NCBI RefSeq assembly: GCF_016278385.1
Contig: NZ_JADQBY010000019.1
Coordinates: 1-64,000 of the forward strand
Reading direction: 5' to 3'
Length of the DNA: 64,000 nt
From: Methanolobus sp.
GTDB taxonomy: Archaea > Halobacteriota > Methanosarcinia > Methanosarcinales > Methanosarcinaceae
The notes beneath the pieces are model-generated. The model saw nothing but the letters and a program-made list of their open reading frames with translations. It was not told the DNA's origin and did not search any database. The stretch's first letter is position 1, and every line of letters starts with the position of its first letter. Below are positions 31,141-63,123 of this stretch, piece by piece. The position numbers were made by a program, and so were the translations under genes.

Positions 31141-33069
31141 TTGAAAAAAATCGTGTTGTTAGAGACTTCAGAGCAGGTAGTAGATTGGTTCTCACAAAGC
31201 CAACGTTTTATTGGCACAACAATCATAATTGCACTTTCACCTGATGCGATGTATGAGCTTGAAAAAAACGATGTTGAGTTTAAAGTTTTTGAAGACTATT
31301 ACAAACCGGTGGAATTATATCGTGAGCAAATTTTGAATTATAGCAAAGTTGAAAATCTTTGCCAATACCTTGATAAGCGTATAGTGGAGTGTTGCCGTAA
31401 GGTTGGATCTTATTCTATTCAGCCTGCCATGTTTTCAATTCGATATATTTTGACAACTTATGCAGTAATATCAACAAGGATGTTTCAAATATCTAAACTA
31501 ATATCTATAGAAAAACCAGAAGAGATTATCTATTATGATACTTTAAAATATCCGTTTGGATTTAACAAATCAGCGCCTTTCATTTCGTTTGACAACCGTG
31601 AATCAGTCTATTCCAATTTATTATCACATATAAATTGGGGAATTGTTACCAAAAAAATGGCAATGATAGGGGATGGACAAGTACTAATTTCTTTAAATGA
31701 TGAAAAATTTAGGACTATTAATTTCCCGTCACATTTTAAAAAATGGCTTTTAAATCATCCTATGTGCTACAGTTGTTTATTAAATATTCAAAAAAATAGT
31801 TTTAATAATATGTGGGCTGTATTAAAACAAATCATACCAACTGCAAGAAAACCAGTCCTATTATATGGGGCTGGTTATAGCTGGGATGACTCAATTAGCT
31901 ATCTGCTTAAAAATAACATAACTCCAATATACAGGACTTTGGAGGATTCTGATGTGTTCAATCAGATGTCCATTCAAAAATCAGAAATACTCGATGAATT
32001 GTGGTGCGATCTTGTGGAAGATCCAAAATTTAGGTTCTTCTTCACATGCAATGGTTTTGATTTTTTCCCTATTGTAGAAAGCCGATTTAAATTCTTAGTA
32101 TTGAATTTGATTCCTCTTTGTTTAATAATAACAAAACAAACTATAGAAAGGATTAAAAAACAAAAAATAAAAGCAGTAATTGCATCAACACTTGCAACTC
32201 CAATTGCAAATTCAGTTGCATGTGCAGCTCATACCTGCAATATACCCGTAGTAACATGGCAACATGGGGGGTATGGTGCGATGAGAAACCATCCGTTTAT
32301 AACATACTTAGATTTGCTTAATTCAGATAAACATCTTGTATTTGGAGAAGGAGTCAAGGATAGCTTGGTCACTGAAGCTATTAGGTTCCAAACAGAAGTA
32401 AGAGTAGTCGGATCAATGTCTCTTGAAATGCAAATCAAAGAACATTCATTTGATTTTTCAGTGCAAGAAAAAGTAATTCTATATGCAACTGATTTGTACC
32501 TTAATAACAGTCAATATATTTCAACCGATCCTCCATTTTCAGATGTCATGCTGTGGCAAACACAGAAGCAAATAATTAACCTTTTGTCGACTTATAAAGA
32601 TTATACTATATTGCTCAAATTACATCCATCCCAAAAGCGAAATGAATCACTTATTGCAAAATATATAACAGATAATGATTTTGAAAACTTTAAAATCATA
32701 GGGCTTGAACAAAGTTTTACAGAACTACTCAAAGTTACGAATGCAATTATTCTTGATAGACCATTTACAACAATATTGCAAGCTCTTGTTACTAATAAGC
32801 CAGTATTTGCATTTACAGGTCTTGTTTATTATAGTGAAACAGCACAACAATTTCTTTCAAAACGTGCTATTTGTCAACAGGATATCAGTATCTTTTTATT
32901 TGAACTGAATGCGTATTTATCTGAGAATAAATATTCTCCCGATTTAAACAACAATGAGTTTTTGGTCCATTATGGTCATTCTTTAAAAAAGAACTCTGGA
33001 GAGAGTGCTGTAGAAAATTTGCTTGAAATAATCGCGGAATTTGAAACAAAAGATAATGAATTCAATTAA
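31141..33069 (+). CDS. Predicted GT-B-fold surface carbohydrate transferase
   Basis: A 642-residue protein without close recognisable motifs at the N-terminus. The C-terminal half has a GT-B/CDP-glycerol-transferase look (VVTWQHGGYGAM near residue 370, LLKLHPSQKRNES, and an FTTILQALVTNKPVFAF donor-site stretch), as in transferases that add polyol-phosphates or nonulosonic acids. The start is TTG at 31141, with GGAG about ten bases upstream; no in-frame ATG fits better. Its place beside an SpsF-like gene and a flippase supports a role in finishing or attaching the special sugar. Function is inferred. Confidence 0.7.
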   Translation: MKKIVLLETSEQVVDWFSQSQRFIGTTIIIALSPDAMYELEKNDVEFKVFEDYYKPVELYREQILNYSKVENLCQYLDKRIVECCRKVGSYSIQPAMFSIRYILTTYAVISTRMFQISKLISIEKPEEIIYYDTLKYPFGFNKSAPFISFDNRESVYSNLLSHINWGIVTKKMAMIGDGQVLISLNDEKFRTINFPSHFKKWLLNHPMCYSCLLNIQKNSFNNMWAVLKQIIPTARKPVLLYGAGYSWDDSISYLLKNNITPIYRTLEDSDVFNQMSIQKSEILDELWCDLVEDPKFRFFFTCNGFDFFPIVESRFKFLVLNLIPLCLIITKQTIERIKKQKIKAVIASTLATPIANSVACAAHTCNIPVVTWQHGGYGAMRNHPFITYLDLLNSDKHLVFGEGVKDSLVTEAIRFQTEVRVVGSMSLEMQIKEHSFDFSVQEKVILYATDLYLNNSQYISTDPPFSDVMLWQTQKQIINLLSTYKDYTILLKLHPSQKRNESLIAKYITDNDFENFKIIGLEQSFTELLKVTNAIILDRPFTTILQALVTNKPVFAFTGLVYYSETAQQFLSKRAICQQDISIFLFELNAYLSENKYSPDLNNNEFLVHYGHSLKKNSGESAVENLLEIIAEFETKDNEFN

Positions 33070-41835: not shown

Positions 41836-42675
41836 ATGGAAATATCAGATAATATTGAATCCCCTGTTGTTAGCATAATAATGAATTGCTATAATTGTTC
41901 CACATATCTAAAAGAGGCTATTGATAGTGTTTATACCCAAACATATGGTGACTGGGAAATCATCTTCTGGGATAATGTATCCACTGATAATAGTGCTGAG
42001 ATTGCAAAAAATTATGATTCAAAATTGAGGTATTTTTGCGGTGACAAAAATGTTCCTCTTGGTAATGCAAGAAATCTTGCAATAGAAAAAGCACAAGGTC
42101 AATATATAGCATTCCTTGATTGTGATGATATCTGGTTGCCATCAAAACTGGAAAAGCAAATATCTTTATTTGAAGCAAATTCCAATATAAAACTTGTATT
42201 TTCTGATTGCAATGTCATTAACTCTCAACATGAGATTCTATACAGGCTATTTTCCGTGCAAAAGCCATCAAGGGGGTTTGCGTTCAATGAATTATTGTTA
42301 TCAAACAATTTTATTTCTTTAGTAACTGTGGTTATTGAGAGATCTGTATTTTATGACATTGGCACTTTTAATGATGAGTTTAAAATAGCTGAAGAATATG
42401 ACCTTTTTCTGCGTATAGCCCATAAACATCCTTTGGATTATGTCGATGAAGCCCTTGCTGAATACAGGATTCATGAAAATAATTGGAGCCATAGACAGGA
42501 TATTGGTATCAAAGAGCAGCTCAAGATTATAGAATTCTGGCTTAACAAAGATATCCTTATTAAAAACAAATTGAGAACAAAAAAGATTAAGCGTAAGATT
42601 GCATTATGTCTTTATTATATTGTAAAGTATATGAAATTTCCCAAAAAATGGTCTGCGTTTTATAAGACACAATGA
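41836..42675 (+). CDS. Glycosyltransferase family 2
   Basis: A 279-residue GT-A-fold transferase: VSIIMNCYNCSTYLKEAIDS entry, a FLDCDDIW segment carrying the DxD-like metal site, and EEYDLFLRIA near residue 190. The ATG at 41836 follows AAAGGT; the ATG at 41821 would add five residues and has no site of its own. No membrane segments are seen, so it acts at the cytoplasmic face on a lipid-linked acceptor. The sugar is unknown. Confidence 0.88.
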   Translation: MEISDNIESPVVSIIMNCYNCSTYLKEAIDSVYTQTYGDWEIIFWDNVSTDNSAEIAKNYDSKLRYFCGDKNVPLGNARNLAIEKAQGQYIAFLDCDDIWLPSKLEKQISLFEANSNIKLVFSDCNVINSQHEILYRLFSVQKPSRGFAFNELLLSNNFISLVTVVIERSVFYDIGTFNDEFKIAEEYDLFLRIAHKHPLDYVDEALAEYRIHENNWSHRQDIGIKEQLKIIEFWLNKDILIKNKLRTKKIKRKIALCLYYIVKYMKFPKKWSAFYKTQ

Positions 42676-42681
42676 GCTAAT

Positions 42682-43803
42682 ATGACTATAATATTACTTA
42701 TCCTTATAGCAATTACATTTATTCCTCTTTCAGTCTATGCTATTTACATAATTGCAGCTGTAACTTCACGCATTCCTCTTTCTGAATCACTAGAATCACT
42801 TCCCTATATTAGTGTTGTTGTTCCTGCTTATAACGAGGAAAAGGTAATTGAATCTCGTCTCAAAAATCTTGCAGAATCTTACCCTCATGAAAAAATAGAA
42901 ATTATAATTTCAAACGATGGTTCATCTGACAATACGAAAGAGATAGCCTTGAAAGCCTTAGATAAATACTCTCTGACAGGAAAAGTTATCACTCATGATA
43001 GAAGTGGTGTCAACAAGGCTATAAATCGTGGGATTGAACAGTCATCCAGTGAAATTGTAGTCATTACAGGTTCAGATGGACTGTTTGACAAAAACACAAT
43101 TCCTGATCTTATGGGTGTGCTCATGAGCAGTGATGAAATAGGTGCAGTTTCCGGTGACATGGTTACCTATGCAGAAGGAGATACGCTGTTTTCAAAATCA
43201 GAAAGTGCATATCGTTCAATATATGGGAAAATCTGCATGTGGGAAAGCAATCTTCATTCTACTTATTGTTTAAATGGAGCAGTTGTTGCCTTCAAGAAAA
43301 AAGCTTCTTCGACTCTAAATACTCGCAGGGGTGCAGATGATGCCAGCATGGCACTTTCTGTTATAAGGAATGGTTACAAGTGCAAGTATGTACCATCGGC
43401 TAAGTTCTATGAACTTGTTCCTCACGAATTCAGTGAGCAGCGGAGACAAAAGATACGCCGGGCTACAAGACTTCTAGAAGCAACTATTTTCAACAGGGAT
43501 GTGTTTTCTCCAAAATACGGAAAATTCGGTATGGTAGTTTATCCTCTTAGGCTTTTGATGTTTGCTGTAGTACCATCAACCTTTTTCCTTTCACTGATTT
43601 TGTGGACTCTGGTGTTGAGTTCTTTTAGTATTTATTATGGAATTGCTTTCATTGGAATTATGTTATGTTTGGTTTTCATGGGTACTATTAAGGCTAATGT
43701 TATTTCTTCATTCATTATTTACCAGAGCTATCTTTTGCTGGGACTGTTTAATATGCTCAGAGATGTACATATATGGGAACCCAATAAAAGAACAAAAATC
43801 TAA
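42682..43803 (+). CDS. Membrane-bound glycosyltransferase family 2
   Basis: A 373-residue processive-type GT2 protein. One N-terminal membrane helix (residues ~3-28) is followed by a GT-A domain (SVVVPAYNEEKVIESRL, ISNDGSSDNT, a TGSDGLFD metal site and an EQRRQKIRRATR segment near the Q/RxxRW position of synthases), then about three to four C-terminal helices (residues ~280-360). It is the last intact gene of the glycan island; the following kilobase holds only gene remnants. Confidence 0.88.
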   Translation: MTIILLILIAITFIPLSVYAIYIIAAVTSRIPLSESLESLPYISVVVPAYNEEKVIESRLKNLAESYPHEKIEIIISNDGSSDNTKEIALKALDKYSLTGKVITHDRSGVNKAINRGIEQSSSEIVVITGSDGLFDKNTIPDLMGVLMSSDEIGAVSGDMVTYAEGDTLFSKSESAYRSIYGKICMWESNLHSTYCLNGAVVAFKKKASSTLNTRRGADDASMALSVIRNGYKCKYVPSAKFYELVPHEFSEQRRQKIRRATRLLEATIFNRDVFSPKYGKFGMVVYPLRLLMFAVVPSTFFLSLILWTLVLSSFSIYYGIAFIGIMLCLVFMGTIKANVISSFIIYQSYLLLGLFNMLRDVHIWEPNKRTKI

Positions 43804-43931
43804 CTTTTGTTTTGTTATGTTCGTAATACACCTACAAATATGGCATATCTAAAGATTATAACAAGTTCTGAAGAGGATTGAATGCTTTCAAAGCAGCAGT
43901 ATTTTTATATCTTCCTGAGAATGTTATTTCA

Positions 43932-44440
43932 ATGTCACAAGTTGCAGTCTTGAAAACATCGCCAAATACCGTAATCGAAGATTACAGTAAGCTGATGCAC
44001 AGCATTGATTATTAGCAATATTTTCCTAAAGATAAAAAAACTATAATTAAACTCAATTTATCCTGGTCACTTTATTTTCCTGCTTGTTCAACTGAACCAT
44101 GGCAACTGGAAGCAGTTCTAAAAACAATGAGGGAAGATGGGTACAAAGACATCGTAGCCATGGAAAATAAGACTGTTGTAACAAAAGCCAATGAAAGGAG
44201 CCAAACAAAACAAGTGGCTTCCGATTCTTGAAAAATATGGTGTTGAATTTATTCCGCTGACTGAAGTTGAATGGGTAGACTATATACATAAATCAGAAAT
44301 GCTGTCTATGAATAAGGTTTTCCCGGATGGTTTCAAAATACCAAAGCCCTTCATAGGTGCTAATATTGTTCATTTGCTACCCTGAAAACCCATGGTCATA
44401 CCACTATGACCGGTGCACTGAAAAATGCTTTTGGTGGTCT
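43932..44440 (+). pseudogene. Broken DUF362-family gene
   Basis: Conceptual translation from ATG 43932 gives a DUF362-like N-terminus (MSQVAVLKTSPNTVIEDYS, then LSWSLYFPACSTEPWQLEAVL and MREDGYKDI). It is broken by an in-frame TAG at 44013-44015, a frameshift near 44185 into the frame containing WLPILEKYGVEF, and a second frameshift near 44384 into a LKTHGHTTMTGALKNAFGGL stretch. The last segment is the family's characteristic KTH...TGALKN core. The gene is therefore dead; the intact family member would run for several hundred more residues. It is truncated at 44440, where another gene's tail begins. Confidence 0.8.
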
Positions 44441-44636
44441 TGGGGTTGCAGAGGGAAGTATTGTTGGAATACTTCAGACTGCAGGGATTTCAAAGGCGAT
44501 AGCAGCTGCTTCTGCTTTGTTAATTCGATTTGGAACCTTGTGGTTTGGTGTTTTTGTTGGAGTATTTACTCTTATACTAAACAGGAAGAAGTTTGAAAAT
44601 AATAGTGATGATTCAGATATATCCGGAATGGAATAG
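44433..44636 (+). pseudogene. C-terminal fragment of a UPF0104/flippase-like membrane protein
   Basis: The last ~65 codons encode GGLGVAEGSIVGIL followed by two hydrophobic helices and a charged tail (NRKKFENNSDDSD). This is the typical end of the lysylphosphatidylglycerol-synthase-TM/UPF0104 (AglD-like) family, whose PGGLG(V)xEG motif precedes the last helices. All earlier helices are missing. The fragment is in frame with the end of the DUF362 remnant, and the junction falls in the shared Gly-Gly-Leu codons (44433-44441), so a deletion between two neighbouring glycan genes is likely. An open reading frame runs from 44406 to 44636 but is probably not functional. Confidence 0.72.
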
Positions 44637-44810
44637 GAATAATAACCTAATAGTAATGTAATAACGTATTCAAAAAACTCTTATCGTCATATCTAAATAT
44701 ATTAATCATCCTGTACTTATACAGACATTTTACTCAATTTTTAAGTACTATTAACTTAATCATATCTCAAAAATTCGAATAATTCCACCTCAATTCTGTA
44801 ACGTGATTAC

Positions 44811-45659
44811 ATGCCATACACAATTATCGAAAAAAAGGAAATAGCATCTTCTGTGCACATGATGAAAATACTCGCGCCTGATGTTGCCAAAGCTGCAAAG
44901 GCAGGACAGTTCATTATAGTACGTATTGATGAAACCAGCGAAAGGGTACCGTTGACAATTGCCGATTTTGATGCAACAGAAGGTACCGTGACCATAATCT
45001 TCCAGGAAATGGGCAAGACTACAAAGCAGCTTGCAAAGATGGCAGCTTCAGATGAGCTACAGGATTTTGTTGGTCCCCTGGGAACTCCTGCTGATGTAAG
45101 GGAACTGGGTACAGTTATTCTTGTAGGTGGCGGAGTAGGTATTGCCCCGGTGTATCCGCAAGCTAAGGCATATAGTGAAGCAGGGAACAAAGTAATATCT
45201 GTGATTGGAGCAAGGAACGAAAGCCTGCTTATCCTTGAGGATGAGATGAGGGCCGCAAGTGATGAACTTCACGTCGCAACAGACGATGGCTCTAAAGGTC
45301 ACCACGGTTTTGTAACAGATGTTGTGAAGAATATCCTTGACAGCGGTGAAAAGATCGCAAGGGTAGTTGTAATAGGCCCTCCGATTCTTATGCGTGTGGC
45401 AGCAGGTATGCTGGAGCCTTATGGTGTGGAAACTCTTGTAAGTCTGAATCCTATCATGATCGATGGTACAGGTATGTGTGGCGGATGCAGGGTCTCTGTG
45501 GGTGGAGAGACAAAGTTTGCCTGTGTGGATGGTCCGGAATTTGATGCTCATAAAGTTGATTTTAACCTTCTCATGAGTCGTCTGGCTCTTTACAGAAACG
45601 AAGAATCAAAGTGTCTTGATAATCACAACCATAAATGTACATGTAAGGGTGATAACTAA
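44811..45659 (+). CDS. Sulfide dehydrogenase/NfnA-like FAD-[2Fe-2S] subunit
   Basis: A 282-residue protein of the ferredoxin-NADP reductase-like family that includes dihydroorotate dehydrogenase electron-transfer subunits, Sud-beta and NfnA. It has an FAD-binding beta-barrel (RVPLTIADF), an NAD(P)-binding GGGVGIAPV motif near residue 103, and a C-terminal [2Fe-2S] cluster region (GTGMCGGCRV, then FACVDGPEFD). It overlaps the next gene's start by one base. Together they would form a heterodimer moving electrons between ferredoxin, NAD(P)H and possibly sulfur compounds. Confidence 0.88.
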   Translation: MPYTIIEKKEIASSVHMMKILAPDVAKAAKAGQFIIVRIDETSERVPLTIADFDATEGTVTIIFQEMGKTTKQLAKMAASDELQDFVGPLGTPADVRELGTVILVGGGVGIAPVYPQAKAYSEAGNKVISVIGARNESLLILEDEMRAASDELHVATDDGSKGHHGFVTDVVKNILDSGEKIARVVVIGPPILMRVAAGMLEPYGVETLVSLNPIMIDGTGMCGGCRVSVGGETKFACVDGPEFDAHKVDFNLLMSRLALYRNEESKCLDNHNHKCTCKGDN

Positions 45660-47029
45660 TGGTTGACAGACAGGCAATGCCACTGCAGGATCCTAAAGAG
45701 AGGGCACACAATTTCAATGAGGTGGCACTTGGTTATAGTGGTGAGCAGGCACTTGCTGAAGCTTCAAGGTGTCTTGAGTGCAAAAGCCCTAAATGTGTAG
45801 AAGGTTGTCCTGTGAATATCGATATACCTGGCTTCATCTCCTGTATAAAGAAAGAGGACTTTGACGGGGCAATCGATACAATAAAACTTACCAACACACT
45901 TCCTGCAGTATGCGGACGTGTCTGTCCTCAGGAAGTTCAGTGTGAACTACACTGTATACTTGCAAAGAAGGGTGAACCTGTTGCTATCGGAAGACTTGAG
46001 CGCTTCTGTGCAGACTATGAAAGGGAGAAGGGTGTAACTCCTCCTGTCCGCACCACATCTTCAGGTAAGAAGGTTGCAGTGATCGGTGCCGGTCCTGCAG
46101 GTCTTACGGCAGCAGCTGATCTTGCAAAAGCAGGTCATGCAGTCACAATGTTCGAATCACTTCACGATACTGGCGGTGTACTTACTTATGGAATTCCTGA
46201 ATTCAGGCTTCCAAAAGCAATCGTCAGGGATGAAGTGGAATACATTAAACAACTTGGTGTTGATGTCAAGGTTGATTACGTCATCGGTAAAATAAAGACC
46301 CTCGATGAGCTCAGAGAGGATTTTGATGCGGTTTTCCTTGGAACAGGCGCTGGATTGCCTAAATTTATGGGCATAGAAGGTGAGAACCTCAATGGTGTTT
46401 ACTCTGCAAACGAGTTCCTGACACGGGTTAATCTGATGAAAGCCTACCTGTTCCCTGACTACGATACTCCTATCAAGAGAGGGAAGCATGTCATTGTAGT
46501 TGGCGGCGGCAACGTTGCAATGGATGCCGCACGCAGTGCACTCCGTCTTGGTGCAGATGAGGTAAGCATAGTCTATCGTCGTAGTGAGGATGAACTCCCT
46601 GCAAGGAAAGAAGAAGTTGAGAATGCAAAGGAAGAAGGTATTGTTTTCAGGCTCCTTACTAACCCGACCCGAATACTTGAAGGTGAGAACATGACAGTAA
46701 ATGGCGTTGAATGCATAAGGATGGAACTTGGAGAACCCGATGAGTCAGGACGCAGAAGCCCTGTTCCAATAGAAGGCTCTGAGCATGTAGTAGATGCTGA
46801 TGTCGTTGTCATTGCCATAGGCACATCACCCAATCCTATGATATTTTCCGGATCAGAGGGTCTGGAAACAAATTCCAGGGGCACTATAATTGTCGACGAT
46901 TCCGGAAAGACTTCCCTTGCAAATGTCTATGCCGGTGGGGATGCTGTGACCGGTGCTGCAACTGTTATCAGTGCAATGGGCGCAGGTAAGATTGCTGCAC
47001 AGGCCATTAATGAATATCTTAGCAACTAA
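45659..47029 (+). CDS. Glutamate-synthase-small-subunit-like flavoprotein (NfnB/SudA type)
   Basis: A 456-residue flavoprotein of the GltD/NfnB/Sud-alpha family. The N-terminal domain holds two [4Fe-4S] ligand sets (CLECKSPKCVEGCPVNIDIPG and VCGRVCPQEVQCE). Two dinucleotide folds follow: FAD (VIGAGPAGL near residue 141) and NAD(P) (VVGGGNVAMDAAR). The final YAGGDAVTGAATVISAMGAG is diagnostic. With the preceding subunit it fits an electron-bifurcating or NADPH:ferredoxin oxidoreductase; a stand-alone glutamate synthase is the other annotation used for this family. Confidence 0.9.
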   Translation: MVDRQAMPLQDPKERAHNFNEVALGYSGEQALAEASRCLECKSPKCVEGCPVNIDIPGFISCIKKEDFDGAIDTIKLTNTLPAVCGRVCPQEVQCELHCILAKKGEPVAIGRLERFCADYEREKGVTPPVRTTSSGKKVAVIGAGPAGLTAAADLAKAGHAVTMFESLHDTGGVLTYGIPEFRLPKAIVRDEVEYIKQLGVDVKVDYVIGKIKTLDELREDFDAVFLGTGAGLPKFMGIEGENLNGVYSANEFLTRVNLMKAYLFPDYDTPIKRGKHVIVVGGGNVAMDAARSALRLGADEVSIVYRRSEDELPARKEEVENAKEEGIVFRLLTNPTRILEGENMTVNGVECIRMELGEPDESGRRSPVPIEGSEHVVDADVVVIAIGTSPNPMIFSGSEGLETNSRGTIIVDDSGKTSLANVYAGGDAVTGAATVISAMGAGKIAAQAINEYLSN

Positions 47030-59589: not shown

Positions 59590-59609
59590 ACCTCTTATTT
59601 AATAGAGGT
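59590..59609 (+). promoter_or_regulatory. Hairpin over the integrase ribosome-binding site
   Basis: A 6-base inverted repeat (ACCTCT at 59590-59595, AGAGGT at 59604-59609) with an 8-base loop includes most of the GAGGTG ribosome-binding site of the recombinase (59605-59610). In an mRNA it could hide that site. Whether it is transcribed depends on the transcription start. Confidence 0.4.
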
Positions 59610-59616
59610 GTATATA

Positions 59617-60465
59617 ATGGTATCGGAAGCAATGAAAAATCTCAGTACATTTGTCAGTTATGAGGACTTCCTTAAGCTGGAAAAGACTGCAAAAGAGTAT
59701 GAAGTACGTGCTATTAGGAAGAAAGCAAGAAAGGGTGAATACTCTTTGTTTGTAAGGATGTTATTCTTTACAGGTGCTCGTATATCTGAGGTCGTGGGTA
59801 GTAATAGGAGAGTGTACACACAATGTCTTTTCCCCGGTTTCAAGAAAAGGAAGGGTAACTGTCCCAAGTGGGCTGCACAAAGGGACGATAAGGTCTGTAT
59901 TGAAGCTGGCTGCAAATCTCTGACATCATATGTGCAAAAAGCCCATCATGGAATACGTGTCAAAGATATTGTCTTTAACGACAGGATTATCGCTGTATAC
60001 GGTAAGAATGTCAAGTCTGATGAACTCAAAGCAAGGACTGTCATCATTGATTCTGAGACACTTGAGATGCTCCGGGAGCACATTGAAAGGTATTCATTGA
60101 GACCGAATGATAAAATTATTAGTCTGAATGAAAATGGTGCTAAGACACTGGTAAATAAACTCCGTGATATCACTGAACTGCACTGGTTGACTGCACATAA
60201 GTTCAGGCATGGACACGCCGTCTATTGCATTCAGCATGGTATGGATATTCGTACTTTACAACAGCAGCTTGGTCACTCTGATTTGGGTACTACTGCTGTG
60301 TATCTTCAGTTTGCTGTTAATGAGCGGAAAAAGGCGTACGATAAGGTCTTCTCTAAAAAGCCGGACCATGTCAAGGTGCAATGTCCTTCTTGTGGGTTCA
60401 ACTTCCGTCTATGCAAAAATCACGAAATGGAATTAGAGGACCGGCTGAGTACAATGTTCCAATAG
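59617..60465 (+). CDS. Tyrosine recombinase/integrase with Cys-rich insert
   Basis: A 282-residue site-specific recombinase. The catalytic residues seen are R55 (TGARISEV), H194-x2-R197 (AHKFRHGHA), H220 (LGHSD) and the nucleophile Y229 (AVYLQ). An insert after the first catalytic Arg holds cysteines C70, C82, C94 and C99, a probable metal site, and a C-terminal tail holds a CPSCGFNFRLC motif. The ATG at 59617 follows GAGGTG; the GTG at 59608 lies within that site. It begins the foreign element and is adjacent to the beheaded pilin. Confidence 0.88.
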   Translation: MVSEAMKNLSTFVSYEDFLKLEKTAKEYEVRAIRKKARKGEYSLFVRMLFFTGARISEVVGSNRRVYTQCLFPGFKKRKGNCPKWAAQRDDKVCIEAGCKSLTSYVQKAHHGIRVKDIVFNDRIIAVYGKNVKSDELKARTVIIDSETLEMLREHIERYSLRPNDKIISLNENGAKTLVNKLRDITELHWLTAHKFRHGHAVYCIQHGMDIRTLQQQLGHSDLGTTAVYLQFAVNERKKAYDKVFSKKPDHVKVQCPSCGFNFRLCKNHEMELEDRLSTMFQ

Positions 60466-60561
60466 GATATGATTGACCATCATCCCCTCCAACCTTTCTT
60501 TTTTCCACCACCCCCCTATCACACCTGTTCTCTCATCGCAAACCTTCACCCACTCCGCCAT
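60433..60561 (-). CDS. Possible small basic/tryptophan-rich ORF (42 aa)
   Basis: A 42-residue reading frame (MAEWVKVCDERTG start) on the reverse strand that overlaps the end of the integrase gene. It has no clear ribosome-binding site. Its first residues resemble those of another short reverse-strand frame at 63870-63974. It may be a chance frame. Confidence 0.2.
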   Translation of the reverse strand: MAEWVKVCDERTGVIGGWWKKERLEGMMVNHILLEHCTQPVL

Positions 60562-60759
60562 GTGCTACGCAAACATTTAAACAGTGCTATAATAACAAGT
60601 AAACTTGTTTAGTTACAGATTGCGATTTTTGCTATATGCAATGACAGTGCCGAAAATTAAGTGGTATGTTGATATTGGTTTTTTTGTTACCTAAAGTTTA
60701 ATTGTCAGACAATTTATATTGTTTTAGCGTGTAGTAGTACCAAATACGGAGTGAAAATC
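60466..60759. promoter_or_regulatory. Regulatory gap with two palindromes before the RHH gene
   Basis: A 294-base gap between the integrase and the first ribbon-helix-helix gene. It holds a perfect dyad AACAAGT-AA-ACTTGTT at 60594-60609 and another, AATTGTC-A-GACAATT, at 60700-60714. The second abuts a TATA-like tttatatt at 60713-60720, about 45 bases before the start codon. A repressor bound there would block the promoter. Confidence 0.55.
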
Positions 60760-60966
60760 ATGACAGTAGAAAAGAAGTCAGTATCATTTCAGGAAGATTT
60801 GTTCGAAGAAATGGAGTCAAGACGTGCTGAATTCGATATGAGTCGAAGCGGTTACATTGATTCCGTTCTCCGTGTGCACTTTGGACTTGACAGCACTGAA
60901 AAACAGACCAAAGTCACAGTGCATGAAAATGTATTCTCCGATGCAGAAATAACTTCTGCACTATGA
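60760..60966 (+). CDS. Ribbon-helix-helix DNA-binding protein
   Basis: A 68-residue protein with a CopG/Arc-like pattern: the SVSFQEDLFEEMESRR beta-helix, then MSRSGYIDSVLRVHF as the second helix. It ends in an acidic tail containing HENVFSD. ATG 60760 is chosen because GGAG lies eight bases upstream; the GTG at 60751 overlaps that site. It probably regulates its own promoter through the palindromes upstream, and perhaps element copy number or excision. Confidence 0.75.
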   Translation: MTVEKKSVSFQEDLFEEMESRRAEFDMSRSGYIDSVLRVHFGLDSTEKQTKVTVHENVFSDAEITSAL

Positions 60967-61011
60967 GATGATGCGAGAACAGGCACAAGCTTCGCTCTGA
61001 GAGGCTGATAC

Positions 61012-61224
61012 ATGCCCGACAAAAACGAAATCATCCTGACACTGGACCCTGAGCTACTGCCTTATATTGACGTTCTCAGAGGCTATCAGAGCCGTTCTAC
61101 GTACATCAAGAAGGTGCTCAGGGACCACATTAAGGGTTCAGACGTTCAGTTCGGAATAGTGGACGACACGCAGGAACAGAATGTATTCTCAGAGCATGAT
61201 GATGATTTCTGTGTATTACAGTAA
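61012..61224 (+). CDS. Ribbon-helix-helix-like DNA-binding protein (second)
   Basis: A 70-residue protein with an RHH-like fold signature (IILTLDPELLPYIDVLR, then SRSTYIKKVLRDHI). Its acidic tail (QEQNVFSEHDDD) shares the NVFS motif with the tail of the preceding protein, so the two may be related by duplication and may heterodimerise. A GAGAGG site lies before the ATG. It precedes the primase-helicase gene by 63 bases and is probably co-transcribed with it. Confidence 0.65.
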   Translation: MPDKNEIILTLDPELLPYIDVLRGYQSRSTYIKKVLRDHIKGSDVQFGIVDDTQEQNVFSEHDDDFCVLQ

Positions 61225-61287
61225 TTGAAAATATTACATCAGGGCTGAGGTCCAAGTCAGCCCCAAGAAAAAGTTAACGTGATTTAA

Positions 61288-63123
61288 ATGAACAAAGACA
61301 TCAGTATTAAAATAGATTCCGGTACACCTTCCGAGGATACCGCAGAACAGAACAACGCAATCACTGATTTTGCAGAGCTTAATTCAGCCCTTGTTGAAAA
61401 GACCTATGAGACATCCAACTCTGACCTGTCATTCACCTTTAAGGAAGTGCTTAAGGGTGGAATGTACAAGATAACCGTGAAGGCTCTGTACAAACAGGTT
61501 GTAGTCACTGACAGGGACTTCGATTATGATATCATCCTGAAGGCTGACCACAGGTTCAAAAAGGAGTTCATCAACCAGATTGAACATGACACCGGCAAAG
61601 CAATCAAGAAAAACGATGTAAATAACCTGCTTAATGAAGCCGTCCTCAAGTTCAAGGATGAGCCTGACTTCAAGGCTCACCATGAAGCGTACCAGTGTCT
61701 TGAAAACTTGCGTATACAGGAACTCAAGAACAGGACATCATCATTCCTTAAGGTCGATGAGATGGGTCGTGCGTATGGGATATTCGTACACAACCTTGCA
61801 ACATCATTGATGAAAGAGTACACTTTCCTGACACTTGATGACACACATGAGGTCTTATACTACGAAGATGGAAAGTACAGGCATGGTGGCGAAAATCTTA
61901 TCCGACTACTTGTCCAGAGAGAGCTTCTGAATGAGAGCACTGAGAAGTATCAGAGGGAAGTACTGAACTACATCAAGCATGAGACCCTGATTGAACGTAA
62001 GCACTTCAATCTACCATGCAGGATAATCAACTTCAAAAATGGTCTCTATGAAGTTGAAACACGTACATTCCATAAACACACACCTGAGCACCTGAGCACC
62101 ATGCAACTTAACGTGGACTATGACCCTGATGCTAAGTGTCCAAAGATAGAGAAGTTCATGTCAGAAATCCTACCTAAAGATGTTGACCGGGATGGTACTC
62201 TTGAGTTCACTGGATATGGTATGATTAATGAGAACAACATGCGTAAAGCCTTCATGGGTCTTGGAAATGGTAAGAACGGTAAAACCCAATTTTTCAAACT
62301 TGTCATGAAGCTCTTTGAAGGTCAGTTCAGCATGGAAGCCATACAGGACTTGGAGAAGGATAAGTTCGCTGCACATAACACATGTTGGAAGATGCTTAAC
62401 ATCATGCCTGACCTTCCATCAGAACCACTTGATGACAGCAAGGCTTACAAGACCATTGTTGGTAATGACGGTTTCATCAAGGGTGAAGCCAAGTACATGC
62501 CCGGATATCTTTTCAGACCAACCATCAGGATGATGTTCATGGCTAATCAGGCTCCTTGGGCGCACTTTGAGAACAATGATGCTTACTATGACCGCTGGCT
62601 CTTAGTTGAGTTCAAGCAGCGTTTCGAAGGTCAGAGCGATAACAAGAACCTGTTCAATGAGATATCCACTGATGAAGAGATGGAAGGTTTTGCACAACTG
62701 CTCATCAAACACCTTCACAACTTGCTGGAGCGTGGCGAATATGCCAATGAGAAAGATTTACAGGAGACCAAGAAGATATACTTAATACGTGCTGACCATG
62801 TAAGAGCATTCGTCATGGACCGTCTTGAAGAGGATGATGAAGGTGGTAGGTCAAGCACTGTCAAAGACGTGTACGACTGCTACAAGCAATGGTGTTCAGA
62901 AAACGACATTGCAGGTGTAAAGAGCGGTCCAGAACTCAAGAAAAGGTTTAAGAAGCTCTATGGATGGGAGTTCAAGCAGTTATGGGATAGTGTTAATAAT
63001 GGCAAGGTCTGCTGGGTAGGTATCAGAATCAAGGGTGAACAGGGAAATTCTGGTTCATCATTCACACCATCATTCCCAAGAACACCTTCTCCACCTAAGA
63101 TAGCATTACCACCTGTGAACTGA
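61288..63123 (+). CDS. P4-type phage/plasmid primase-helicase
   Basis: A 611-residue SF3 helicase of the D5/P4 family. Residues ~270-500 are the helicase core: Walker A in FMGLGNGKNGKTQFF near residue 330, Walker B-like NIMPDLPSEPLDD near residue 370, and the MMFMANQAP sensor stretch near 415. The N-terminal half lacks an obvious active archaeal primase motif set, although length and layout fit primase-helicases of integrated plasmids and proviruses. The C-terminal tail is a Pro/Ser-rich extension. It is the likely replication initiator of the element; an origin-like region lies immediately downstream. Confidence 0.85.
   Translation: MNKDISIKIDSGTPSEDTAEQNNAITDFAELNSALVEKTYETSNSDLSFTFKEVLKGGMYKITVKALYKQVVVTDRDFDYDIILKADHRFKKEFINQIEHDTGKAIKKNDVNNLLNEAVLKFKDEPDFKAHHEAYQCLENLRIQELKNRTSSFLKVDEMGRAYGIFVHNLATSLMKEYTFLTLDDTHEVLYYEDGKYRHGGENLIRLLVQRELLNESTEKYQREVLNYIKHETLIERKHFNLPCRIINFKNGLYEVETRTFHKHTPEHLSTMQLNVDYDPDAKCPKIEKFMSEILPKDVDRDGTLEFTGYGMINENNMRKAFMGLGNGKNGKTQFFKLVMKLFEGQFSMEAIQDLEKDKFAAHNTCWKMLNIMPDLPSEPLDDSKAYKTIVGNDGFIKGEAKYMPGYLFRPTIRMMFMANQAPWAHFENNDAYYDRWLLVEFKQRFEGQSDNKNLFNEISTDEEMEGFAQLLIKHLHNLLERGEYANEKDLQETKKIYLIRADHVRAFVMDRLEEDDEGGRSSTVKDVYDCYKQWCSENDIAGVKSGPELKKRFKKLYGWEFKQLWDSVNNGKVCWVGIRIKGEQGNSGSSFTPSFPRTPSPPKIALPPVN

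Follow-up and report, generated by a model that had tools for sequence, protein, structure and literature searches.

How did the front of a DUF362 gene come to stand directly against the end of a UPF0104 gene at the right-hand end of an island of glycan genes in a methanogen, and what was lost when the two met? The locus lies in a window (the whole stretch of DNA analysed here, 64,000 nucleotides of contig NZ_JADQBY010000019.1) from Methanolobus sp., represented by a single draft genome of 2.88 Mb in 52 contigs. The island (~19590-43803), whose content was sampled through Pfam matches for seven genes, one of these without a match, ends in an intact GT2-family glycosyltransferase gene, and intact sudB- and sudA-like genes stand beyond the scar (Table 1). 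We take sudB to be a sulfide/dihydroorotate dehydrogenase-like gene; the sud names in general are likewise our assumption, as is the label GT39 for the GT39-type gene discussed below, the model match of which in M. bombayensis is PMT_2. Two relatives recur throughout, Methanolobus bombayensis DSM 7082 (genome G010, locus L022) and a second Methanolobus relative (genome G007, locus L023).

Two further regions of the window were noted. Inside the island, Pfam gave no match at E 1e-5 for an ORF of 642 amino acids (31141-33069). At 59608-63123, genes for a phage-type integrase (PF00589) and a D5_N/DUF5906 primase-helicase-like protein perhaps represent an integrated mobile element. The search for non-coding RNA at the scar returned a single Rfam match (E 0.55), under its gathering score and outside the scar.

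Table 1. Features at and around the join, in window positions.
Feature	Position	Strand	Evidence
GT2-family glycosyltransferase, intact left flank	42682..43803	+	373-aa ORF; 78.6% aa identity to L022 4794-5915
Dead DUF362 relic (codons 1-170)	43932..44441	+	PF04015 over cut-off with stops read through; intact genes of relatives
Nonsense codon TAG, relic codon 28	44013..44015	+	substitution
One extra base (frameshift), exact base ambiguous	44182..44186	+	alignment to relatives
One base missing (frameshift back to first frame)	44375..44376	+	alignment to relatives
76-aa frame over the join, the part of the in-phase chimera still open	44406..44636	+	ORF; phase of both parents
Junction, breakpoint not placeable more closely; contains GGTGGTCTT	44432..44443	+	breakpoint sliding against L022 and L023
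UPF0104 / PF03706 flippase-like gene, 3' end: last 67 codons and stop	44433..44636	+	profile match and DNA identity to relatives
sudB-like gene, intact right flank	44811..45659	+	89.0% aa identity to L022 11440-12288 (there NCBIfam NF004862)
sudA/gltA-like gene, intact right flank	45659..47029	+	91.9% aa identity to L022 12288-13658 (there NCBIfam TIGR01316)

Two gene remnants meet at the join

The DUF362 remnant claimed in the original prediction was borne out by profile and protein comparison. With its stops read through, the DNA at 44043-44456 matched PF04015 at 36.3 bits (cut-off 24); the separate pieces score under that cut-off. Residues 1-170 of the intact M. bombayensis DUF362 protein matched 43932-44441 (E 5.8e-56), and the DNA identity of the relic to the intact genes was 82.3% for L022 and 83.7% for L023. 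The frameshifts that had been claimed in this part are present, two of one base each, and a nonsense codon comes in addition; these lesions aside, the three pieces of the relic read as DUF362 protein. A TGA at 44383 was rejected as a lesion, being in the shifted frame only. In IQ-TREE trees of the DUF362 part, the nodes on which the placement of the window depends had support values of only 47 and 60.

On the other side of the join, PF03706 matched 44433-44561 with the last 43 of its 302 positions, at 25 bits and thus under the cut-off of 33.4 because so little of the gene remains. The tail was assigned to UPF0104 through the intact M. bombayensis gene, which scores 151.3 bits against PF03706 and whose protein is 80.6% identical over 67 aligned residues, in agreement with the C-terminal fragment proposed earlier. 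Its DNA identity was 78.6% (L022) and 76.1% (L023). The tail has no stop or frameshift; compared to both relatives it has gained three bases, in frame.

A functional fused gene was rejected. The frame is broken by the stop and the two frameshifts, and the substitution pattern is relaxed compared to the same genes in relatives, which taken alone is a weak test. When 60 genomes (the window's own included) were searched by DNA, with at most seven candidates scored per genome, 21 matched and only the window's own sequence spanned the join, so that none of the relatives covered in this way carries the fused version.

Relatives carry both genes whole with the intervening DNA

In M. bombayensis and in the second relative the gene order is DUF362, GT39-type, UbiA, PHP, UPF0104, sudB and sudA. 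Both genes that were expected to be found intact in relatives are thus whole at this very place. A GT2 gene, with Glycos_transf_2 as its Pfam match (L022 4794-5915), directly precedes DUF362 in M. bombayensis and a different gene does so in G007; the flanks are therefore as in the window on both sides for L022 and on the right side for L023. Compared to these loci the window lacks ~4.6 kb here, which held the remainder of DUF362, three whole genes (GT39-type, UbiA and PHP) and the larger part of UPF0104. The deletion had been placed between neighbouring genes; the DNA was indeed lost within one cluster, but the two genes are not neighbours, as three whole genes lie between them. The spacing from the GGL codons of DUF362 to those of UPF0104 is 4614 bases in G010 and 4612 in G007, and in shorter or differently ordered cassettes 2905 (G030) and 2065 (G024), both without a GT39-type gene between DUF362 and UPF0104.

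Joining the flanks of the relatives at the GGL codons gave the sequence that a simple deletion had been predicted to give: the alignment ran unbroken over the join at 80% identity, from 43898 to 47020 for L022, with GT2 aligning as a second piece, and from 43932 to 47020 for L023. For the two relatives respectively, the separate DNA alignments stop at 44441 and 44440 on the DUF362 side and start at 44425 and 44433 on the UPF0104 side. Sliding the breakpoint placed it best at 44439-44442 (L022) and 44439-44441 (L023), or at 44432-44443 and 44433-44442 if one mismatch was allowed. The join holds a single repeat copy and no inserted bases.

The breakpoint falls in a short likeness between the two genes

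The nine bases that had been named as the junction, GGTGGTCTT, were located at 44433-44441 as claimed. Over these nine bases the two parent genes are 8/9 alike in L022 and 7/9 in L023, so an exact nine-base ancestral repeat can only be surmised; over the ten bases 44432-44441 they agree at 9/10 and 7/10 positions, and the stretch at the join that is exactly identical measures six bases in G010 and five in G007. Of the recombination at a short repeat that was proposed, the joining at a short likeness stands, but exact nine-base identity is found in neither relative.

The likeness at the breakpoint is more than chance. In G010, 0.053% of possible breakpoint pairs fall inside a 10-mer pair at least 9/10 alike, and in G007 2.3% fall inside a 10-mer pair as alike as the one found here (7/10); for exact runs, random breakpoint pairs fall within at least six bases in 0.22% of cases (L022) and within at least five in 0.61% (L023). 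Across the four loci that we compared, each of the two proteins retains GGL. Part of the likeness at the join is therefore coding constraint, which explains why it exists. Longer repeats were rejected as the cause of the deletion since none lies at the join: exact repeats of at least 11 bases between the two genes were absent from L022 and L023, and those found away from the join comprised one of 10 bases (L022) and, at 9 bases, six entries in L022 and two in L023. That longer exact repeats were available and yet left unused weighs against a repeat-mediated cut at the GGL codons, as do the coding constraint and the inexact copies in the relatives. Within window positions 42600-44900 there are three two-copy repeat families, none at the join.

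Possible relaxed constraint and the timing of decay

We compared window-only differences at codon positions 1 and 2 with those at position 3, a count to which changes along the stem leading to both relatives also contribute. On the window side, the DUF362 part had a ratio of 0.36 and the UPF0104 tail one of 0.35, compared to 0.08-0.15 for the same genes in relatives, 0.20 for sudB and 0.14 for sudA. Pooled, the two parts differed from the same genes in relatives (Fisher p = 0.003) and from sud (p = 0.009); taken alone, the DUF362 part gave p = 0.011 and the tail p = 0.19 (not significant). Relaxation is nevertheless a weak argument here, because the ratio is just as high in GT2, the intact neighbour of the relic, at 0.37 on the window side and 0.48 for L023. 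By a simple estimate, both parts would have been unconstrained for ~0.28 of the window-side path (95% 0.09-0.53), a path that includes the stem of the relatives. The share was 0.29 (0.06-0.62) for DUF362 and 0.26 (-0.30-0.74) for the tail, values that would fit one event.

Probable deletion within an ancestral cassette, and its alternatives

The reading that we favor, at a probability of roughly 0.78, is that a deletion between the GGL codons of DUF362 and UPF0104 within an ancestral cassette made the join. The ancestor would have carried DUF362, (GT39-type), UbiA, PHP and UPF0104 between the glycan island and sudBA. A deletion from the DUF362 GGL (codons 168-170) to the UPF0104 GGL (codons 258-260), probably a single event, would have removed ~4.6 kb from a cassette composed as in G010 and G007, or ~2.9 kb from one without the GT39-type gene as in G030, and would have left one copy of the short repeat behind. 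The repeats may have paired through replication slippage, strand annealing or microhomology end joining. Because the join is in phase with both parent genes, its initial product would have been an in-frame fusion of the DUF362 front to the tail of a membrane protein, now dead, and the lesions in the DUF362 part presumably came after the deletion. Vertical descent of the cassette is only presumed, since in the sudBA tree of 23 loci the window is not sister to G007 and G010, and 24 of the 27 genus genomes have no intact close DUF362 (4/27 match at E 1e-20, relic included).

We regard it as unlikely that the join came instead from a deletion-coupled insertion, in which the short likeness served to join an imported glycan island, ending in the DUF362 front, to the UPF0104 tail and sudBA already in place, with loss of the missing genes during the exchange. 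Such an exchange would agree with the different third-position patterns on the two sides of the join. For differences unique to the window, L022 and L023, DUF362 has a split of 22:31:23, the tail one of 17:4:8 and sudBA one of 194:84:88. The DUF362 split departs both from sudBA (p = 0.0003) and from the tail (p = 0.008); no such departure was seen between the tail and sud (p = 0.52). The pattern may, however, stem from the relatives. L022 and L023 differ at 144/355 third positions in DUF362 (L022 5976-7043, L023 5801-6868) and at 437/1585 from UbiA to sudA (p = 2e-6), whereas the distances of the window to them in DUF362 and sudBA are not significantly different (p = 0.60 for L022, p = 0.08 for L023). 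Because DUF362 is divergent between L022 and L023 and the window distances are ordinary, recombination in one relative is the simplest reading, and these counts suggest a recombination edge after DUF362 in the L022 or the L023 line.

The left flank and the wider genus also bear on an island exchange. The GT2 gene of the window is closer to its counterparts in G018 (84.4%) and G012 (81.7%) than to that in G010 (78.6%), and in G018 and G012 (L148, L149) this counterpart sits directly on sudB with no cassette gene. On the other side of the balance, GT2 directly before DUF362 is an arrangement common to the window and G010. Owing to the GT2 results, we slightly lowered our estimate for a plain deletion and slightly raised that for an exchange. 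Genes upstream of sudB are varied, which is again in favor of an exchange: among the 23 Methanolobus loci of the sudBA comparison (25 genomes matched; G014, in two pieces, and G020, with 58 bases, were dropped), the cassette is found in G007 and G010, the relic in the window's genome (G000), GT2 on sudB in G018 and G012, and other ORFs in the rest, with the contig of G021 ending after 309 bases. In G009 (L141) there is, upstream of sudB, an ORF whose end resembles by eye the C-terminus of the GT39-type protein. The arrangements in G018, G012 and G009 are possibly independent losses. That imported glycan DNA was stitched in at a ten-base likeness owed to the GGL shared by two unrelated protein families, giving for a time an expressed DUF362-flippase in-frame chimera, we consider decidedly improbable.

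Stepwise decay, in which smaller separate deletions took the middle genes and the present join is the last of them, is very improbable: cassette content does vary (no GT39-type gene between DUF362 and UPF0104 in G030 and G024, GT2 on sudB in G018 and G012), but in this one genome the two parts meet without debris from the middle genes, and one cut suffices. An assembly or sequencing artefact, conceivable in a single draft genome, deserves next to no credence, since the stretch matches once in its own genome, the nonsense codon is a substitution, and the window alone is different at 16/339 first and second positions of the DUF362 part.

Comparison with deletions in haloarchaea

Deletions at short repeats have been described in Haloquadratum walsbyi C23 and HBSQ001 and in Halobacterium (PMC3119063). 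In that account, the repeats are mostly under 20 bp and are counted down to 4, the losses range from 10 bp to 34 kb, and in several cases the repeat copies vary slightly in the undeleted strain (PMC3119063). The window resembles these cases, as described there, in the single short-repeat copy left at its join (PMC3119063). It is unlike Haloquadratum, where by the same account two strains of one species with a core 98.6% identical were compared (PMC3119063), in that our comparison is between species at ~80% DNA identity, hence the parental repeat is not directly seen. The account also describes deletion-coupled insertions in Haloquadratum, with DNA exchanged at fixed flanks, including a surface-glycoprotein island (PMC3119063), which would speak for an exchange at our locus; unlike the insertions described there, no foreign insert can be delimited at the join in the window. 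The scar itself is real, well supported and of a known kind, a commonplace trace of gene loss that can be read clearly, with plain deletion as its probable route.

The lost genes and their predicted role

The UbiA protein of M. bombayensis, absent from the window, passes the cut-off of the decaprenyl-phosphate phosphoribosyltransferase model NF008977 (266 bits, cut-off 234), a role that is only predicted for the archaeal protein. The UPF0104 gene of the same genome passes the cut-off of the flippase-like model TIGR00374, and its PHP gene matches PF02811. Searches of the window's genome gave no UbiA relative at E 1e-8 (of 26 genomes, only G007 and G010 matched), no GT39-type relative at E 0.001 (this search covered the window's genome alone and had no positive control), and, at E 1e-20, neither a second close DUF362 nor a second close UPF0104. 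Distant members of these families are left: two other DUF362 genes, a PHP relative with 36% identity, and other PF03706 genes, three over the cut-off and one under. Perhaps a lipid-linked pentose branch of surface glycan synthesis was lost, polyprenyl-phospho-pentose being the putative intermediate, because no counterpart of UbiA, the predicted phosphoribosyltransferase, was found elsewhere in the genome; this proposal rests on family names.

The set of DUF362, a phosphoribosyltransferase-like UbiA, PHP and UPF0104 recurs at L022 5976-11291, L023 5801-11117, L024 5090-8672 and L025 2483-6162, and also at L077, L086 and L094. We surveyed the best 80 of at least 326 confirmed DUF362 loci, with partners called at E 1e-5. 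UbiA was within reach in 46 of these 80, PHP in 18, UPF0104 in 14, all three in 7 and none in 27; for the 31 loci of at least 14 kb the counts were 16, 8, 7, 2 and 11. The gene set is therefore only loosely conserved across the loci examined. Within the literature covered by our search, no paper was found that links DUF362 with UbiA in an archaeal glycosyl context, or DUF362 with UPF0104.

Together, these results provide a near base-resolved case of gene loss beside a methanogen surface-glycan island, for which the precedent that we found is in haloarchaea. The scar points to a small gene set, composed of DUF362, UbiA, PHP and a UPF0104 flippase-like gene, of putative role. Provided that the family names are correct, the organism of the window would be a natural knockout to set against M. 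bombayensis.
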